Part shown: piece by piece, positions 3,222 to 20,405 of the stretch
Layout of the letters: every line of letters starts with the position of its first letter
Numbering within the stretch: the first letter of the stretch is position 1
Virus record (IMG/VR): IMGVR_UViG_3300042090_000565
Span: 1-22,723 of that record
Source: a virus
Direction: 5' to 3' (one strand)
DNA length: 22,723 nucleotides
Translations under genes and position numbers: made by a program
Notes under the pieces: model-generated
Seen by the model: the letters and a program-made list of their open reading frames with translations, nothing else
What the model was told of the DNA's origin: nothing
Databases searched by the model: none

Positions 3222-3270
3222 CCCTAAAAAAATAACTACCACTCGGTGGATTTTTCCTATACGGTTTTGG
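3222..3270 (+). repeat. 49-bp direct repeat, copy 1 (leader of the prohead protease gene)
   Basis: This 49-base stretch is identical to 20357-20405. It starts with CCCTAAAAAAATAACTACC, continues with a short palindrome CCAC-TCG-GTGG and a T5 run, and ends TATACGGTTTTGG. It lies between the head morphogenesis stop and the start of the protease gene. The sequence continues differently on both sides. Confidence 0.95.
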
Positions 3271-9435: not shown

Positions 9436-9678
9436 ATGCAGCCCGAAGCGCAAACCCTCCTGCTCAAAGACTGGCCCTACCAGCCCGTCAGCATCGCGTT
9501 GATCATCTACCAGCGCGAGCATGGCAAGAATCCCGCTTCGCTATGGGTGGGTTCGGCGCTCTGGAAGATCCTCCGGGACGCTTCCGACGCCGAAGAGTTC
9601 TATGCGGTCGGCCAGTTCCTGATCCGGTGGGAATCTTTCGGGATGCTCGAGCCCCACGAGTTCATGTTTACCGCTTGA
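9436..9678 (+). CDS. Small protein of unknown function
   Basis: This 80-residue protein is not recognised. It is rich in Trp, Leu and Ile (KDWPYQPVSIALIIYQREHG, WVGSALWKILRDASDAEEF) and looks like a compact helical domain. Start ATG 9436 has only a weak GAG ribosome site. Its last codons overlap the -35 element of the next candidate promoter. Confidence 0.55.
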   Translation: MQPEAQTLLLKDWPYQPVSIALIIYQREHGKNPASLWVGSALWKILRDASDAEEFYAVGQFLIRWESFGMLEPHEFMFTA

Positions 9679-9703
9679 CATCAATTCCTAAAAGTCTTAC
9701 CTT
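9675..9703 (+). promoter_or_regulatory. Candidate promoter with perfect TTGACA, giving a leaderless transcript
   Basis: A perfect -35 TTGACA (9675-9680), a 17-base spacer and a weak -10 TACCTT (9698-9703) place the transcript start at about 9710, exactly at an ATG. There is no Shine-Dalgarno before that ATG. Confidence 0.5.
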
Positions 9704-9709
9704 TAGCCC

Positions 9710-10141
9710 ATGAGCCGGTAGATTCCCAATATTGATCCCTACGTTTACCTCTTCATTCGGACGGACCTTTCCGTTCCTCAACAAATCATTCAGTCTGGCC
9801 ACGCGATCTGGTCGCTTTGCGCGTTGCGCGGCGAAACCGGCTGCCCGAACATCGTGCTGATCGGCCTGCCCAGCCTGAAGTCTTTGCAAAAAGCGGCGCA
9901 TAATATTCCTAAAAATATTCCGCGCTATGAGTGGCACGAGCCGGACTGGAACGAAGAGTTCACGGCCCTGGTCACGGCGCCGGTGCGCGGCGCGGACCGC
10001 GAGTATTTCAAGAAGTACCGAGTTTATGCTCCCGTAGCTCAACATCCAGAGTGCCTGACTCTAAATCAGGCGGATCTAGGCGAGAATCCTAGCGGGAGCA
10101 CCATTTTGCCGGGGAGTGCGGAGGCATCTGCGCGGGTTTAA
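9710..10141 (+). CDS. Peptidyl-tRNA-hydrolase-like (Pth2-type) gene with an in-frame UAG at codon 4
   Basis: The frame reads ATG AGC CGG TAG and then stays open to TAA 10139. After the amber codon (9719-9721) the protein has YVYLFIRTDLSVPQQIIQSG, HAIWSLCALRG, CPNIVLIGLPSLKSL and EWHEPDWNEEFTALVTAPV, ending in KKYRVY. This order (R-x-DL, Q...HA, a central VLIG strand, EPD...E.TA, AP) is like phage Pth2-type peptidyl-tRNA hydrolases, which free tRNA from stalled peptidyl-tRNA. No ATG, GTG or TTG lies between the amber and the domain; the next usual start, TTG 9824, would delete its first strand and helix. Expression should therefore need amber suppression, an ATT start at 9722, or an untested alternative; a pseudogene or sequence error is possible. 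The frame runs on through tRNA gene 10028-10103, which begins right after codon 106. Confidence 0.6.
10028..10103 (+). tRNA. tRNA-Sup (CTA), amber suppressor, class I
   Basis: All stems can be drawn: acceptor GCTCCCG/CGGGAGC (7 bp), D-stem GCTC/GAGT (one G-T), anticodon stem CCTGA/TCAGG with loop CTCTAAA, and T-stem CTAGG/CCTAG. The anticodon at 10061-10063 is CTA, which reads UAG. A discriminator A and an encoded CCA end (10101-10103) follow. The elbow is unusual: the D-loop AACATCCA lacks GG and the T-loop CGAGAAT lacks TTC. The gene overlaps the 3' part of the reading frame from 9710. Confidence 0.85.
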
Positions 10142-10166
10142 GTACCAGCCCCGGCACCAGTCTTGG

Positions 10167-10270
10167 GCGTCCGTAGCTCAGCGATAGAGCATCGGTCTCT
10201 AAAACCGACCTCGAAAGAGCAGCGAGTTTTAACTCGTTGGTCGCGGGTTTAAATCCCGCCGGACGCTCCA
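10167..10270 (+). tRNA. tRNA-Sup (CTA), amber suppressor, with a 34-nt variable region
   Basis: The acceptor is GCGTCCG/CGGACGC, the D-stem GCTC/GAGC, the anticodon stem TCGGT/ACCGA with loop CTCTAAA, and the T-stem GCGGG/CCCGC with loop TTTAAAT. The anticodon at 10199-10201 is CTA. The discriminator is T and the CCA end is encoded (10268-10270). The variable region 10209-10242 is 34 nt and folds into two hairpins: CTC-GAAA-GAG (10210-10219) and CGAGT-TTTA-ACTCG (10223-10236). The body resembles tRNA-Arg(TCT), as if that tRNA had gained an insert and a changed anticodon loop. Confidence 0.82.
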
Positions 10271-13429: not shown

Positions 13430-14068
13430 ATGGCTCTCAACCAAGGCAACCAAGGACAGACTGGCAAGCAGGTCGGGCAGAACCTCACCGCATCCTTCGG
13501 AGAATATGCCGACACGCTCGTAACGGAATTGATGCCGCGCTACTACGAACAGGCGTATCGCGGCCAAACGTACTTCAACTCGATCACCAACGCGGCCGTG
13601 ACGGCATACTCCGGCGCCTCCGGCGGCACGCCTTTGCTCGGCGTGTGGAATCCCGCGAACTCCGGCAAGAACCTCATCATCATCCATGCCATGGTCTCCG
13701 TCTATACGGCGGCCTCGGCGGCCGGGACCTGCGCCTTTCGTCTCTACGCGGGCGTGACCGCGGCGATCACCGGCACACTGGTCAGCCCGGTTTCTTCCTT
13801 GACGTTTACGAGCACGGGCGGCGGTTCCGTGGCACGCGCTTCGCAGAACGCGGCGAACAGCTCGTCCACGGCGTTGACCTATATCAACACCATCGGCTCG
13901 TATTACTGGGCGACGGCGGCGGGCGCGGTCATGACCAACCCGTTGCTCTACGATTGCGCGGGCTCGCTCATCATTCCTCCGGGCTCGATGATTGGTCTTG
14001 GCGGGTCGGTTGCGCTGACGTCGGCCACTTACGATGCATTCATTCTGTGGTCGGAAGCCTTCATCTAA
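13430..14068 (+). CDS. Virion surface protein, paralogue 1 of a four-gene tandem family
   Basis: This 212-residue protein has the family plan: a short N-terminal NQGNQGQTGKQVGQNL tag, the conserved core GEYADTLVTELMPRYYEQAY-RGQTYF, a beta-rich middle (TPLLGVWNPANSGKNLIIIH), and the end YDCAGSLIIPPGSMIGLGGS. The core and end are conserved in all four copies while the central loops vary. GGAG precedes ATG 13430. It is probably a capsid decoration, fibre or adhesin subunit; the family is not named with certainty. Confidence 0.7.
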   Translation: MALNQGNQGQTGKQVGQNLTASFGEYADTLVTELMPRYYEQAYRGQTYFNSITNAAVTAYSGASGGTPLLGVWNPANSGKNLIIIHAMVSVYTAASAAGTCAFRLYAGVTAAITGTLVSPVSSLTFTSTGGGSVARASQNAANSSSTALTYINTIGSYYWATAAGAVMTNPLLYDCAGSLIIPPGSMIGLGGSVALTSATYDAFILWSEAFI

Positions 14069-14077
14069 AAGGGAAGC

Positions 14078-14719
14078 ATGTTGAATGTTCTTAACCAAGG
14101 ACAAATCAATAAAAGTCCCGGCGTCAATCTCGTCGCTTCGAGCGGGGAATATGCCGAGACGCTGACCACGCAGCTCCAGCCCCGGTACTACCAGAATGCG
14201 TACCGGGGTCAAACCTTTCTTACGGCCATCTCGAATGCGGCGGTGACCGCCTATTCCGGAGCGGCGGCGGGAACGCCGTTACTCGGACTCTGGAACCCTT
14301 CCTACAACGTCAAGAATCTCGTTCTTCTCCAGGCGGCAGCTTCGGTCTATACGGCAGCGGCCACAACCGCAGTCACCGTGGCATTCCGTCTGTACGGAGG
14401 ACCAACCGCGGCGATCACCGGCACGCTCGTTGCTCCCGTGAATGCTTTGACGTTGATTGGTGTCGCGGGGCAGGGCTCGATCGCGCTGGCTTCGTCAAAT
14501 GCCGCGAACACCGGCAGTAGTGCGCTCACCTACATCTGCACGATCGGATCCTACTACTGGGCCTCGGCACTCGAAGCGCAAAAAACCGACCCGATCATCT
14601 ACGATTGCGCAGGGGCAATCGTCATCCCGCCGGGTTCCATGATCGCGCTCGGCGGTTCGGTGGTTCCGACGACCGCAACTTTTAACGCATTTCTGATATG
14701 GGCCGAGGTGCCCATCTGA
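14078..14719 (+). CDS. Virion surface protein, paralogue 2
   Basis: This 213-residue protein begins MLNVLNQGQINKSPGVNL and carries the family core GEYAETLTTQLQPRYYQNAY followed by RGQTF, LLGLWNPSYNVKNLVLLQ, and the end YDCAGAIVIPPGSMIALGGS. A 65-base stretch (14144-14208) is almost identical to paralogue 3 (14788-14852, one difference). AAAGGGA precedes ATG 14078. The stop TGA overlaps the ATG of the next gene. Confidence 0.7.
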   Translation: MLNVLNQGQINKSPGVNLVASSGEYAETLTTQLQPRYYQNAYRGQTFLTAISNAAVTAYSGAAAGTPLLGLWNPSYNVKNLVLLQAAASVYTAAATTAVTVAFRLYGGPTAAITGTLVAPVNALTLIGVAGQGSIALASSNAANTGSSALTYICTIGSYYWASALEAQKTDPIIYDCAGAIVIPPGSMIALGGSVVPTTATFNAFLIWAEVPI

Positions 14720-15351
14720 TGGCGCCGCTTGCCGGCAACTCGGGACAGGTGGGGAAGCGGGTCGGCGATCAAATCACCGCGTCGCTTGGGGAATATGCCG
14801 AGACGCTGACCACGCAGCTCCAGCCCCGGTACTATCAGAATGCGTACCGGGGGAATGTCTATTTCAATTCAATAACGTCTGCTAATGGAACTGGTTACAC
14901 CGGCGCGGGTACGCCGCTTTTAGCGGTCTGGAATCCGACATACACGAAGAAAAATTTGATTGTCTTCAATGTGATGGCAGCCATCACGAGTTATGCTTCG
15001 AATGGCACTATCGTTGCCAGTTTATGGGGAGGCCCAACAGCATCAATCACCGGCACGCTCGTTCCCCCCGTCAGCGCGCTGACGCTGGTGAGTTCGATGG
15101 CCAATGGGTCAGTGGCGCGATGTTCGCAGAACGCAGCAACAACAGGCGCGAGCACCTTATCGTATATCGGCACAGTGACATCGTCTTACGGACCAGGAAC
15201 TTCGGTAGGTGCCTGTATGAGCCATGCCCCGGTTTATGATTGTGCCGGGCCTTTCGTTGTTCCGCCCGGAGCAATGATCGCTCTTGGTCAGACGCTTACT
15301 GGATCGTGGTGGTGGGATGCGTATCTCTCTTGGATCGAGGTCCCGGTATGA
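14719..15351 (+). CDS. Virion surface protein, paralogue 3
   Basis: This 210-residue protein begins MAPLAGNSGQVGKRVGDQI, then GEYAETLTTQLQPRYYQNAY-RGNVYFNS. The middle differs strongly from its neighbours (WGGPTASITGTLVPPVSALT). It ends YDCAGPFVVPPGAMIALGQT and a Trp-rich SWWWDAYLSWIEVPV. I chose ATG 14719 (overlap TGATG) because it aligns with the family starts; an in-frame ATG at 14698 lies within the previous gene. The stop overlaps the next ATG (ATGA). Confidence 0.7.
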   Translation: MAPLAGNSGQVGKRVGDQITASLGEYAETLTTQLQPRYYQNAYRGNVYFNSITSANGTGYTGAGTPLLAVWNPTYTKKNLIVFNVMAAITSYASNGTIVASLWGGPTASITGTLVPPVSALTLVSSMANGSVARCSQNAATTGASTLSYIGTVTSSYGPGTSVGACMSHAPVYDCAGPFVVPPGAMIALGQTLTGSWWWDAYLSWIEVPV

Positions 15352-15995
15352 ATCTCGGAAACCAGGGCCAAACTGAAAAACTGACCGGCGATCTATTGCC
15401 CGTTTCTTTTGGGGAATATGCCGAAGTTTTGGAAACGCAGCTCGAGCCGCGCTACTGCCAGCAAACCTATCGTGGGCAGAAGTTTTTTTACAGCGCCACG
15501 AATCTTTGGAGCATCACAACCTACACAGGAAATGCCGGCGGGACGCCATTTGTGGGACTGTGGAACCCTTCCTATACGGGAAAGAACTTGATCCTTCAGC
15601 ATATTTTTGCCGCGAGCTATAGCTATGGGGGCAACGTTGTGACATGCCCGGTCGCCCTCTATGGCGGCCCAACAAATGCGATTACCGCGGCGTCCAGCAA
15701 TCCGACAAATGCGCTGACTTTGATAACGTCCGGCAACAATGGCTCTACCGTGCGCTGTTATACGACCACGGTACTGTCGGGCAGCTCGGCGTTGGCTTAT
15801 ATTTGCTCTGCTACGTCTTTCTATACCGTGGCGACCGGAACCGGAATCGGATCGTCGATGCCGGCGACCATCTATGATGTGGGCGGCGCGATTGTTATTC
15901 CTCCCGGTTCAGCGCTTGCCCTCGGCGGCCCTGTGAGCGGCACGGATGGCGGCTACTACGACCTTTCGCTTTGGTGGAATGAAGTCCCAGTTTAA
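15348..15995 (+). CDS. Virion surface protein, paralogue 4
   Basis: This 215-residue protein begins MNLGNQGQTEKLTGDLLPVS and has the core GEYAEVLETQLEPRYCQQTY-RGQKFF, FVGLWNPSYTGKNLILQH, and the end YDVGGAIVIPPGSALALGGP with LSLWWNEVPV. It is the most divergent copy in its middle part. ATG 15348 overlaps the previous stop and aligns with the family start; longer upstream in-frame starts lie in the preceding gene. Confidence 0.7.
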   Translation: MNLGNQGQTEKLTGDLLPVSFGEYAEVLETQLEPRYCQQTYRGQKFFYSATNLWSITTYTGNAGGTPFVGLWNPSYTGKNLILQHIFAASYSYGGNVVTCPVALYGGPTNAITAASSNPTNALTLITSGNNGSTVRCYTTTVLSGSSALAYICSATSFYTVATGTGIGSSMPATIYDVGGAIVIPPGSALALGGPVSGTDGGYYDLSLWWNEVPV

Positions 15996-16408: not shown

Positions 16409-18334
16409 ATGATTGCTGGAATCCTAGCCACACGCTCCACGGCCTCTGCGGTCAGTGGCGCAATCCGTGGTAAAGCGACCGTAACCGGAACGCTTGTCGG
16501 CATCGTTCTCCTGGCCGCAAGCGTCACGGGACACGCTTCGGCTTCCAGCACCCTCAAAGGCCATTCCACTTCTTCGGCCACGATTTCACGGCAAGCCACC
16601 GTCGCTGGAACGCTTGTCGGGAAAACTTCCCTCTCCGCTGCTGTCGCGGGACATGCTTCCGCTTCCGCAACCCTTCTCGGAAAGGGCACACTCGCAGGCG
16701 CGGAGTCCGGTCATGCCACCGTCGCGGCAACCGGCCTCGGCAAAGGCGCACTCGCAGGATCTTCGACAGGTCATGCCACAGTCGCTGGAACCGCAAAAGG
16801 CGCAGGCACGCTTGCCGGGGCGAGTGCCGGCCATGCAGCCGCTTCTGCCACGCTCAAAGGAACCGGCGTTCTTGCGGGATCCGCAACCGGCCATGCAGCG
16901 ATTACAGGCCTGCTTTCCCATGGTGCCGGAGCCTCGATCGCCGGGCATGCCACCGTCACTGGAACGCTGAAAGGCGCAGGCACGCTCGCTGGAGCGAGTG
17001 CCGGCCACGCCACAATCGCCGCAACATTGAAAGGGGCGGAAAGCAGCGCTGCCAGCATTTCCGGGCATGCGACTGTGGCCGGCACACTCACCGCCAAGGG
17101 TGCGCTCACGGGTGCGTCCACCGGCCATGCCACGGTGGGCGGCCAGCTCTCGCACGGGGCTAACGCGGGACTCTCTGGCCATGCTTCCGTTGCTGGAACA
17201 CTTAAAGGCGCGGGAGCGTTGTCAGGTGCGAGCTCCGGACATGCCGCGATCGCCGGCACGCTCAAGGGCGCAGAAAGCAGCAGTGCCAGCATCACTGGTC
17301 ACGCCTCTGTGGCCGGCACGCTTACCGCGAAAGCCGCGATCACAGGTTCCGCAACCGGCCATGCTTCCGTTTCCGGCCAGCTTTCTCATGGCGCAACCTC
17401 CGGAATCTCGGGGCATGCTGCGGTTAGCGGAACGCTCAAAGGTGCCGGTGTTCTCGCAGGATCTTCGACCGGTCACGGTTCACTTGCCGCAACGATCAAA
17501 GGCGCAGCTCCGATCGCGGGTGCCTCCGCGGGCCACGCGTCTATCGCCGCAAGCCTCGTCGGAAAAAGCGCAAGCACGTCCGGAATCTCCGGCCATGCCT
17601 CTTTGGTTGCGGCAGCTTCCGCGCACAGCAATTCGGCCAGCGCAATCACCGGCCGCGCGACCGTCACCGGAACGCTCAGAGGAACCGGCAACCTGGGCGC
17701 AGCTCCGGCCGGTAACGCGACCGTTAAAGCGACGCCGCAAATCGCCTCCAAGATTTCCGGCCATGCTTCCGTTTCCGGAACACTCCTCGGCAAAGGCGCA
17801 CTCGCGGGATCCCCGGCCGGCCACGCTTCGATCACCGCCTATCTGTCGCACGGTTCGACCGCTGTCATCGCCGGTCACGCCACGGTTACCGGAACGCTTT
17901 CAAAACTGGAACGCGCCACGGCAACGATCAATGGCCGCGCAACCGTTGCCGGAACGATGCAGGGCGTCGGCGTTCTTTCCGCGTCGATCTCCGGCCAGGC
18001 CGCGCCCGGCGGCACACTGACCGGAGCGGCACCGCTTGCTGCATCAATCTCCGGCCAGGCTTCCGTTGTCGCACCGATTCTCCCGCTGGTAGGGGGTGTC
18101 ATTGGAACCGGAAGTGAAAGTTCGGTCACCGGAAGCGAAACCGCAACAGCGACCGAGGGAACCAGTGCGGGAGCTTCGATCGCGGGAACCGGTGGCGCGG
18201 GTGCGGTCACGGGCGTGGGCAGCGTTTTGATTCCCTATGTTTATCCCGTTGGATTTTCCAATGCGTTCTATAATGGGGCGTTCGATTCCGCGCCGCCTCC
18301 GAATCTTGCGTTGAAAAAGAAGAGGAAAAGGTGA
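16409..18334 (+). CDS. Long repeat protein of about 20-residue GHA(T/S)-V-x-GTL units
   Basis: This 641-residue protein is built almost entirely of degenerate units of about 19-20 residues with the pattern GHAxVxGTLxGxGxLxGxS. It contains only small residues plus a regular His. A higher-order repeat of exactly 78 residues (234 bp) is marked by LSHG at 16913, 17147 and 17381; a further LSHG occurs at 17843. The last 100 residues leave the pattern and end in a basic tail (KKKRKR). The composition suggests a beta-solenoid or fibrous shaft, perhaps a head or tail fibre. AAGGATGAGG precedes ATG 16409. The function is not known. Confidence 0.72.
   Translation: MIAGILATRSTASAVSGAIRGKATVTGTLVGIVLLAASVTGHASASSTLKGHSTSSATISRQATVAGTLVGKTSLSAAVAGHASASATLLGKGTLAGAESGHATVAATGLGKGALAGSSTGHATVAGTAKGAGTLAGASAGHAAASATLKGTGVLAGSATGHAAITGLLSHGAGASIAGHATVTGTLKGAGTLAGASAGHATIAATLKGAESSAASISGHATVAGTLTAKGALTGASTGHATVGGQLSHGANAGLSGHASVAGTLKGAGALSGASSGHAAIAGTLKGAESSSASITGHASVAGTLTAKAAITGSATGHASVSGQLSHGATSGISGHAAVSGTLKGAGVLAGSSTGHGSLAATIKGAAPIAGASAGHASIAASLVGKSASTSGISGHASLVAAASAHSNSASAITGRATVTGTLRGTGNLGAAPAGNATVKATPQIASKISGHASVSGTLLGKGALAGSPAGHASITAYLSHGSTAVIAGHATVTGTLSKLERATATINGRATVAGTMQGVGVLSASISGQAAPGGTLTGAAPLAASISGQASVVAPILPLVGGVIGTGSESSVTGSETATATEGTSAGASIAGTGGAGAVTGVGSVLIPYVYPVGFSNAFYNGAFDSAPPPNLALKKKRKR
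16450..18080 (+). repeat. Tandem repeats inside the repeat protein (about 57-60 bp units; 234-bp higher-order unit)
   Basis: Units recur as GGNCAYGCN...GGNACNCTN. Two successive 234-bp higher-order units run from 16913 to 17380, and a third copy begins at 17381 and degrades. The DNA has diverged mainly at third codon positions, so the protein pattern is better kept than the nucleotides. Confidence 0.8.
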
Positions 18335-20356: not shown

Positions 20357-20405
20357 CCCTAAAAAAATAACTACCACTCGGTGGATTTTTCCTATACGGT
20401 TTTGG
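20357..20405 (+). repeat. 49-bp direct repeat, copy 2 (leader of the tail-tube gene)
   Basis: This stretch is identical over 49 bases to 3222-3270 and in the same orientation. It ends 31 bases before ATG 20437 and starts 4 bases after the previous stop. The coding frame used in copy 1 is not usable here, so the copy is non-coding. Confidence 0.95.

Follow-up and report, generated by a model that had tools for sequence, protein, structure and literature searches.

A conserved in-frame stop codon at the start of phage Pth2-like genes, probably read by phage-encoded suppressor tRNAs

The recoding of stop codons by phage tRNAs is already known, as is a synthetic circuit of the logic considered here, whereas a natural gated gene seems to be undescribed. 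In the suppressor-tRNA feed-forward "leak dampener" (Ho et al., PMC7969014), a gene carrying a nonsense codon is on only in the presence of a dedicated suppressor tRNA, and an opal (TGA) version was tested as well. Phages that use code 15 or 90 encode CTA or TCA tRNAs that decode a stop codon as an amino acid (PMC13037316). An early in-frame stop codon also controls the translation-related protein encoded by prfB (RF2), where the level of release factor is sensed via a +1 shift. The PTH2 proteins of jumbo phages have been proposed to act in tRNA repair or ribosome rescue (Iyer et al., PMC7824862; RaK2, PMC3622015). Finally, the paper on phage XacN1 reported two CUA tRNAs for which no target gene could be identified, and the Summit paper likewise describes a suppressor tRNA without an identified target.

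The locus that we describe differs from each of the systems that it resembles. Unlike the man-made leak dampener, the phage gate is natural, is conserved across very distant phages, and has a tRNA-acting enzyme as its target. In code 15 and 90 phages the recoded codon occurs in many genes, whereas in the gated phages TAG is a normal stop codon and only one or a few gene starts are gated. The early in-frame stop is shared with prfB, but the phage gate uses a phage-encoded tRNA in trans. The jumbo-phage papers deal with the same protein family but mention neither suppressor tRNAs nor the gate. In the literature that we could search, we found no natural gene described as gated by the suppressor tRNA beside it; an earlier report is not excluded, since preprints and most subscription journals were outside our reach.

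The stretch of DNA analyzed, referred to as the window, comprises positions 1 to 22,723 of the metagenomic virus contig IMGVR_UViG_3300042090_000565 from IMG/VR. Its relevant features are as follows.

9675..9703 (+): promoter-like element with TTGACA at 9675-9680, a 17-nt spacer, and TACCTT at 9698-9703, based on sequence and on the layout in relatives
9710..9718 (+): start codon and two leader codons (Met-Ser-Arg), present in the sequence as ATG-AGC-CGG
9719..9721 (+): the gate, an in-frame TAG at codon 4, conserved among homologous loci
9722..10141 (+): open frame after the gate, with the Pth2-like domain at about 9740-10027 and a TAA stop at 10139-10141
10028..10103 (+): tRNA1, with a CTA anticodon and an encoded CCA end, lying within the 3' end of the Pth2 frame
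10167..10270 (+): tRNA2, anticodon CTA, encoded CCA, U73, variable region of roughly 34 nt

An earlier note on the window, made from sequence alone, had pointed to the ATG at 9710, the UAG at codon 4, and the open frame beyond it, to the lack of any ATG, GTG, or TTG between the UAG and the domain, and to two downstream CTA tRNAs with encoded CCA ends. All of this held. The first potential start past the gate is TTG 9824, 35 codons on and already inside the domain. Its claim that a TTGACA element places the RNA start at the ATG held in the form "at or next to ATG 9710," a geometry from which leaderless translation is predicted. The same promoter layout recurs in loci L169, L175, and L182 and in cluster C mycobacteriophages; L169 (-10 box TAGAAT) and L175 keep the spacing of the window and have better -10 boxes. 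What the note had not remarked on is that the open frame continues through tRNA1. Nesting of this kind, with the first CTA tRNA beginning inside the Pth2 frame, is also found in L155, L165, L169, and L175. The closest relatives of the window (L169, at 60% identity, and L155, L165, L166, L175, and L172) are all gated. Frames with an early stop were listed by a mechanical scan of both strands of the window, and only the 9710 frame was compared with homologues.

Both window tRNAs satisfy the criterion of a cloverleaf with a CTA anticodon and a CCA end. They match the Rfam tRNA model at 57.0 bits (tRNA1) and 59.8 bits (tRNA2), with a gathering score of 29, and have the same anticodon loop, CTCTAAA. 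ARAGORN reported tRNA1 and omitted tRNA2, probably because of the long variable region of the latter. In shape they are unusual: in tRNA1, the T-loop (CGAGAAT) is odd and the D-loop lacks GG, so that the usual elbow contacts are apparently absent, and the T-loop of tRNA2 reads TTTAAAT. A second CTA tRNA is also present in L155, L165, and L175, the last being 100 nt long and likewise carrying U73. Across plus-strand loci, all 103 of 103 suppressor tRNAs lie on the strand of the gene, at a median distance of 475 nt. ARAGORN found no CTA tRNA in the genome of L019 (357,873 bp), but a tRNA that it had missed, with the loop CCCTAAA (C33), lies at the orthologous place (approximately L019:8815-8905), and L019 was rejected as a gated phage lacking a CTA tRNA. 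The same candidacy of L039 was rejected after a CTA tRNA was located further away. Possibly, standard tools under-count suppressor tRNAs in gated phages. The gated fragments L034, L058, L060, L102, and L112 showed no CTA tRNA in the available sequence, their contigs being incomplete. An attempt to deduce the inserted amino acid from tRNA similarity was abandoned, as the CTA tRNAs are too diverse and resemble no single isotype.

The product of the window gene has a Pth2 fold, as the earlier note had supposed, although the structure itself is a model prediction and the enzymatic activity is inferred. The window domain on its own gave no match above threshold in Pfam. The assignment rests on three agreeing lines: PF01981 (PTH2) is matched by 63 of 74 aligned relatives (best, 1e-10); a family profile matched archaeal Pth2 structures in the PDB, with 2zv3 at 1.8e-7; and Foldseek, queried with the AlphaFold prediction for the window domain (mean pLDDT, 92.6), returned only Pth2-type structures among the ten best hits, including Bit1, with TM scores of about 0.62 to 0.75. 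Of the motifs of cellular Pth2 (GK..Q..HA and DAG.T), the Q, the HA, and the T of DAG.T are retained, whereas the GK segment is two residues shorter and EPD replaces DAG. As these two active-site stretches deviate from cellular Pth2, the fold does not fix the exact substrate. Annotators began several of these phage genes inside the domain, downstream of the true start, or missed them; standard gene callers miss or truncate such gated genes.

Conservation of the gate was assessed in homologous loci. The window protein alone found nothing in viral contigs, but alignment-based searches succeeded. A tblastn search against named phages yielded 21 records at 30 to 35% identity, and the first eight all showed an ATG, one or two codons, a TAG, and the domain; in many of them a Shine-Dalgarno motif precedes this ATG. 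Searches of IMG/VR and GTDB genomes gave 131 distinct loci, of which 129 were placed in a tree. With manual inspection, which covered HD fusions, double gates, and start codons close behind the gate, these comprised 86 TAG gates, 3 TGA gates, no TAA gate, and 35 ungated loci; the remainder were frame shifted (2), carried a TAG inside the domain (2), or were ambiguous (1). A strict rule, demanding a start no more than 10 codons before the stop and none between the stop and the domain, yielded 77 TAG, 3 TGA, and 0 TAA gates; in two TAG cases and one TGA case of this set, a GTG or TTG lies shortly after the gate. Going upstream from the domain, the first in-frame stop met is TAG in 86 of 89 gated loci versus 2 of 35 ungated ones. 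In the relatives the gate lies at codons 2 to 10, most commonly codon 3 (37/80), and a Shine-Dalgarno-like motif precedes the ATG in 43 of 80 gated loci. In-frame TAGs within the Pth2 domain, apparently internal gates, were seen in L160, L163, and L078 (codons 34, 55, and 33, respectively), that of L078 being its second TAG, and L022 and L023 have two TAGs ahead of the domain.

With conservation in 86 of 129 homologous loci, a chance origin of the gate is excluded. A sequencing error, or a pseudogene whose start is gone, would be a natural suspicion for a metagenomic virus contig such as the window, but the same layout occurs in all of these loci and in the independently sequenced isolates GAP32, CBB, BF, ME3, XacN1, RAS14, Arash, and five mycobacteriophages. 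This explanation is all but excluded, and an error at 9719-9721 specifically, one of the refutations that the earlier note had named, is ruled out by the relatives.

Alternatively, ribosomes might stop at the UAG and restart at a nonstandard codon just behind it, such as ATT 9722, in which case the suppressor tRNA would be irrelevant. In favor of such reinitiation, ATT is the next codon after the gate in 26 of 80 loci, and GTG is the next codon in the mycobacteriophages. In most loci, however, the codon there is not a start codon (AAC in 11, AAT in 10, or ACA, GGT, GAA, and others), and no conserved start codon follows the gate. Reinitiation also leaves unexplained the choice of TAG, the use of TGA only together with a TCA tRNA, and the lack of TAA. 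We regard it as very unlikely, and a start at ATT 9722, a second refutation named beforehand, is disfavored.

The nucleotide that follows the gate (+4) is a purine in 78 of 80 cases compared with 163 of 360 terminal TAGs from 13 contigs or genomes of the gated family (p about 6e-21); +4U has been reported to lower readthrough (PMC5289835). Since related loci were counted separately and are not phylogenetically independent, p-values in this study are guides only. A readthrough signal in cis is not apparent, as no stable RNA fold was detected just after the gate in the five loci tested, with z-scores of -0.17 for the window and 1.37, -1.30, -1.67, and -0.84 for the others. The gate might also be one instance of a genome-wide reassignment of TAG (code 15, known from Lak and certain crAss-like phages), but this too is very unlikely. 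Code 15 phages do carry CTA tRNAs (PMC13037316), and the TAGs inside the domain in L160 and L163 and the second TAG in L078 could be read in this way. However, TAG still ends 8 to 24% of open reading frames of at least 80 amino acids in ten contigs or genomes, which shows that the code is not reassigned; four window genes end in TAG, and gates occur only at the start of a few genes. Given that TAG remains a terminator and no stable RNA structure follows the gate, the tRNA is a likelier signal than either a cis element or an altered code.

The best support for reading of the gate by the tRNA comes from three changes of TAG to TGA, each paired with a TCA (opal) tRNA. The TGA gates (..GAG TGA in L032, ATG AAG TGA in L079, and ATG GAA TCG TGA in L134) occur in three parts of the tree beside TAG-gated relatives, a topology that requires three independent changes. 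Each of these loci has a TCA tRNA, and ARAGORN found no CTA tRNA in their whole contigs (67.8, 123.8, and 172.5 kb). The match between gate codon and anticodon is significant (Fisher p = 1.9e-5), without correction for relatedness.

Two further loci do look like +1-frame versions of the gate, recalling prfB. In L026, a four-base reading of TAGG is required to bring the ATG into frame with the domain, and about 530 nt upstream there is a tRNA whose loop, CGCCTAA, contains an unusual G33. In L080, reading TGAA as four bases makes the frame fit, and the only tRNA of the contig, just upstream, has the loop CTTTCAA. Bases 34 to 37 of these tRNAs (CCTA and TTCA, respectively) are complementary to the four-base gate. 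It is equally possible that they pair with the overlapping +1 codon (AGG or GAA). These cases are no more than a lead, because ordinary tRNA-Arg and tRNA-Glu share bases 34 to 37 and the pattern was noticed post hoc in only two loci.

Comparison with named phages offers both support and difficulty. Klebsiella phage RaK2 and Erwinia phage Hallingskeid have, in their complete genomes, an ungated Pth2 gene with a plain ATG and no suppressor tRNA. Relatives with a sense codon and no suppressor tRNA had been named in advance as refuting the idea of a gate; they nonetheless fit the model, because these phages lack both the gate and the tRNA. In RAS14 and XacN1, a fusion of an HD domain to Pth2 is gated, and CTA tRNAs lie elsewhere in the genome. 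The gate thus offers a target for the suppressor tRNA of XacN1, but not for that of Stenotrophomonas phage DLP5, a relative of Summit, which has a CTA tRNA and in which we found no Pth2 and no convincing gate. All five cluster C mycobacteriophages examined show a leaderless (A/G)TG-TAG-GTG before an annotated peptidyl-tRNA hydrolase, with a CTA tRNA downstream, although here the GTG after the TAG might itself be the start.

The main weakness of the simple gating model is that it does not explain three ungated Pth2 clades that mostly have a CTA tRNA nearby. These clades, about 30 loci in all, are a marine "MNSYIYTFI" group, a "MKKLY" group, and a group with an N-terminal fusion, and they have an ordinary ATG start. 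A CTA tRNA is near the ungated Pth2 gene in 18 of 26 loci labeled UNG and 8 of 9 labeled UNGF. An in-locus CTA tRNA, present in 66 of 86 TAG-gated loci, consequently does not separate gated from ungated genes. Local scans of the marine and "MKKLY" clades for other gated reading frames showed no excess of TAG over TAA or TGA, and a second gated gene appeared in only some loci with an ungated Pth2 (L105, L108, L115, and L174). In these clades the suppressor targets may lie elsewhere, or Pth2 may be useful wherever a suppressor tRNA acts.

The latter thought leads to an antidote model, which accepts the same gate and remains possible. Pth2, made in proportion to suppression, would clear peptidyl-tRNA from ribosomes that overrun UAG stops. 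Consistent with this, Pth2 stays beside the CTA tRNA even in ungated clades, as if required wherever a suppressor is used, and the start-X-UAG leader doubles as a minigene. Minigenes are a source of peptidyl-tRNA drop-off. Against it, Pth2 is ungated in RaK2, Hallingskeid, and Aeromonas phage 65, the first two lacking a suppressor tRNA. Moreover, a tRNA whose sole role is production of its own antidote would leave the pair without net benefit, and a further target gene would be required.

Returning to the reading that we prefer, it is very likely that a phage suppressor tRNA is needed in trans for production of Pth2. The earlier note had inferred that the domain is made only when the phage tRNAs suppress the UAG; this is strongly supported by comparison, on the strength of the conserved UAG, the lack of a start after the gate, the three matched TGA/TCA switches, a context favoring readthrough, and RaK2 and Hallingskeid. 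The anatomy of the gate, its conservation, its covariation with the anticodon, and the absence of genome-wide recoding are shown, like the Pth2 fold. Charging of the tRNA, readthrough in cells, timing, and purpose are inferred, as there are no expression, charging, or mass spectrometry data. In the proposed mechanism, the ribosome would initiate at ATG 9710 and reach codon 4, the UAG. In the absence of the phage tRNA, release factor 1 (RF1) would terminate after three codons and no enzyme would be made. Once transcribed, processed, and charged by a host synthetase, the phage CUA tRNA would compete with RF1 and add one amino acid at the UAG, permitting synthesis of the Pth2 domain. Gene and tRNA would together form an AND gate, or coherent feed-forward arrangement, that yields a tRNA-acting enzyme only once the phage tRNA supply works. 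In the window, tRNA1 lies within the 3' end of the gene, and its excision would therefore truncate the mRNA before the stop codon. Conceivably, one transcript in this clade could become tRNA or message but not both, which might limit output.

The purpose is less certain than the gate. It may be a check on the readiness of phage tRNAs before a tRNA-repair enzyme is made, or a feedback against side effects of suppression; that the gene reports or times suppressor activity, as first suggested, is plausible but no more than an inference. We judge its most likely purpose to be the freeing of blocked or dropped-off peptidyl-tRNAs and hence the restoration of tRNAs during infection, and perhaps also the countering of host enzymes that block tRNA 3' ends. 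If the model is true, this is a natural gene switch in which nonsense suppression is the "on" signal and which reads out that a phage tRNA has been made and charged. It supplies a target for the suppressor tRNAs of a family that includes XacN1, RAS14, GAP32, CBB, ME3, and Arash and that likely extends to about 190 cultured cluster C mycobacteriophages. The gate/tRNA pairs (CTA/TAG and TCA/TGA) are ready-made orthogonal parts.

The gate is not confined to Pth2. Loci L027 and L118 have a gated, stand-alone HD-domain protein that is homologous to the gated HD-Pth2 fusion of XacN1 and RAS14, with 35 to 41% identity to the gated N-terminal half of the RAS14 protein, and a family of 80-amino-acid proteins is gated in seven loci, including L105 and L108, where Pth2 is an ungated fusion. 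The gated HD domain and 80-amino-acid protein indicate that the gate is not tied to Pth2 and point to a small gene set. A bolder reading, which we offer tentatively and suspect is rather more apt to fail than to hold as a whole, would see here a natural nonsense-suppression regulon shared by large phages whose hosts differ widely. A stop codon would keep a few tRNA-related genes (Pth2, HD domain, and 80-amino-acid protein) off, a dedicated phage tRNA would turn them on, codon and anticodon would co-evolve, and the +1-frame gates TAGG (L026, CCTA) and TGAA (L080, TTCA) would belong to the same scheme.

Some minor observations concern the neighborhood of these genes. In two Planctomycetota-associated contigs, the gene directly 3' of the gated Pth2 (L178:5397-5810 and L179:5390-5820; ..RWG(Y/F)(Y/H)(P/S)CS..) is itself TAG gated, and an ungated frame after Pth2 in the L080 contig (RWGFHPCS) resembles it. 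A TAG-gated frame of 244 codons with a Pth2-like beginning (INHKLIIITRRDLHPGYQAV..) lies upstream of the gated Pth2 in L083 (L083:1715-2450). Elsewhere in the window, 44-1771 encodes a portal-like protein (phrog_2662) whose C-terminal part appears to be a fusion, resembling 2'-5' RNA ligase/2H phosphoesterase and Acb1 anti-CBASS profiles at a sub-cutoff E value of about 1e-4. By eye, the start of this frame (44-290, ..VCCVCVPNKFLYVRRNGKVAWSGN-T..) resembles the C terminus of an intein truncated by the contig start. Positions 3226-3270 and 20361-20405 share upstream sequence and first codons (AAAAAAATAACTACCACTCG GTG, MDFSYTVL), like a copied start region. Four neighboring paralogous genes for similar "(Q)YY..YRGQ" proteins occupy 13430-15995, and a long protein made up of "GHATVTGTL" repeats comes after them, at 16409-18334.
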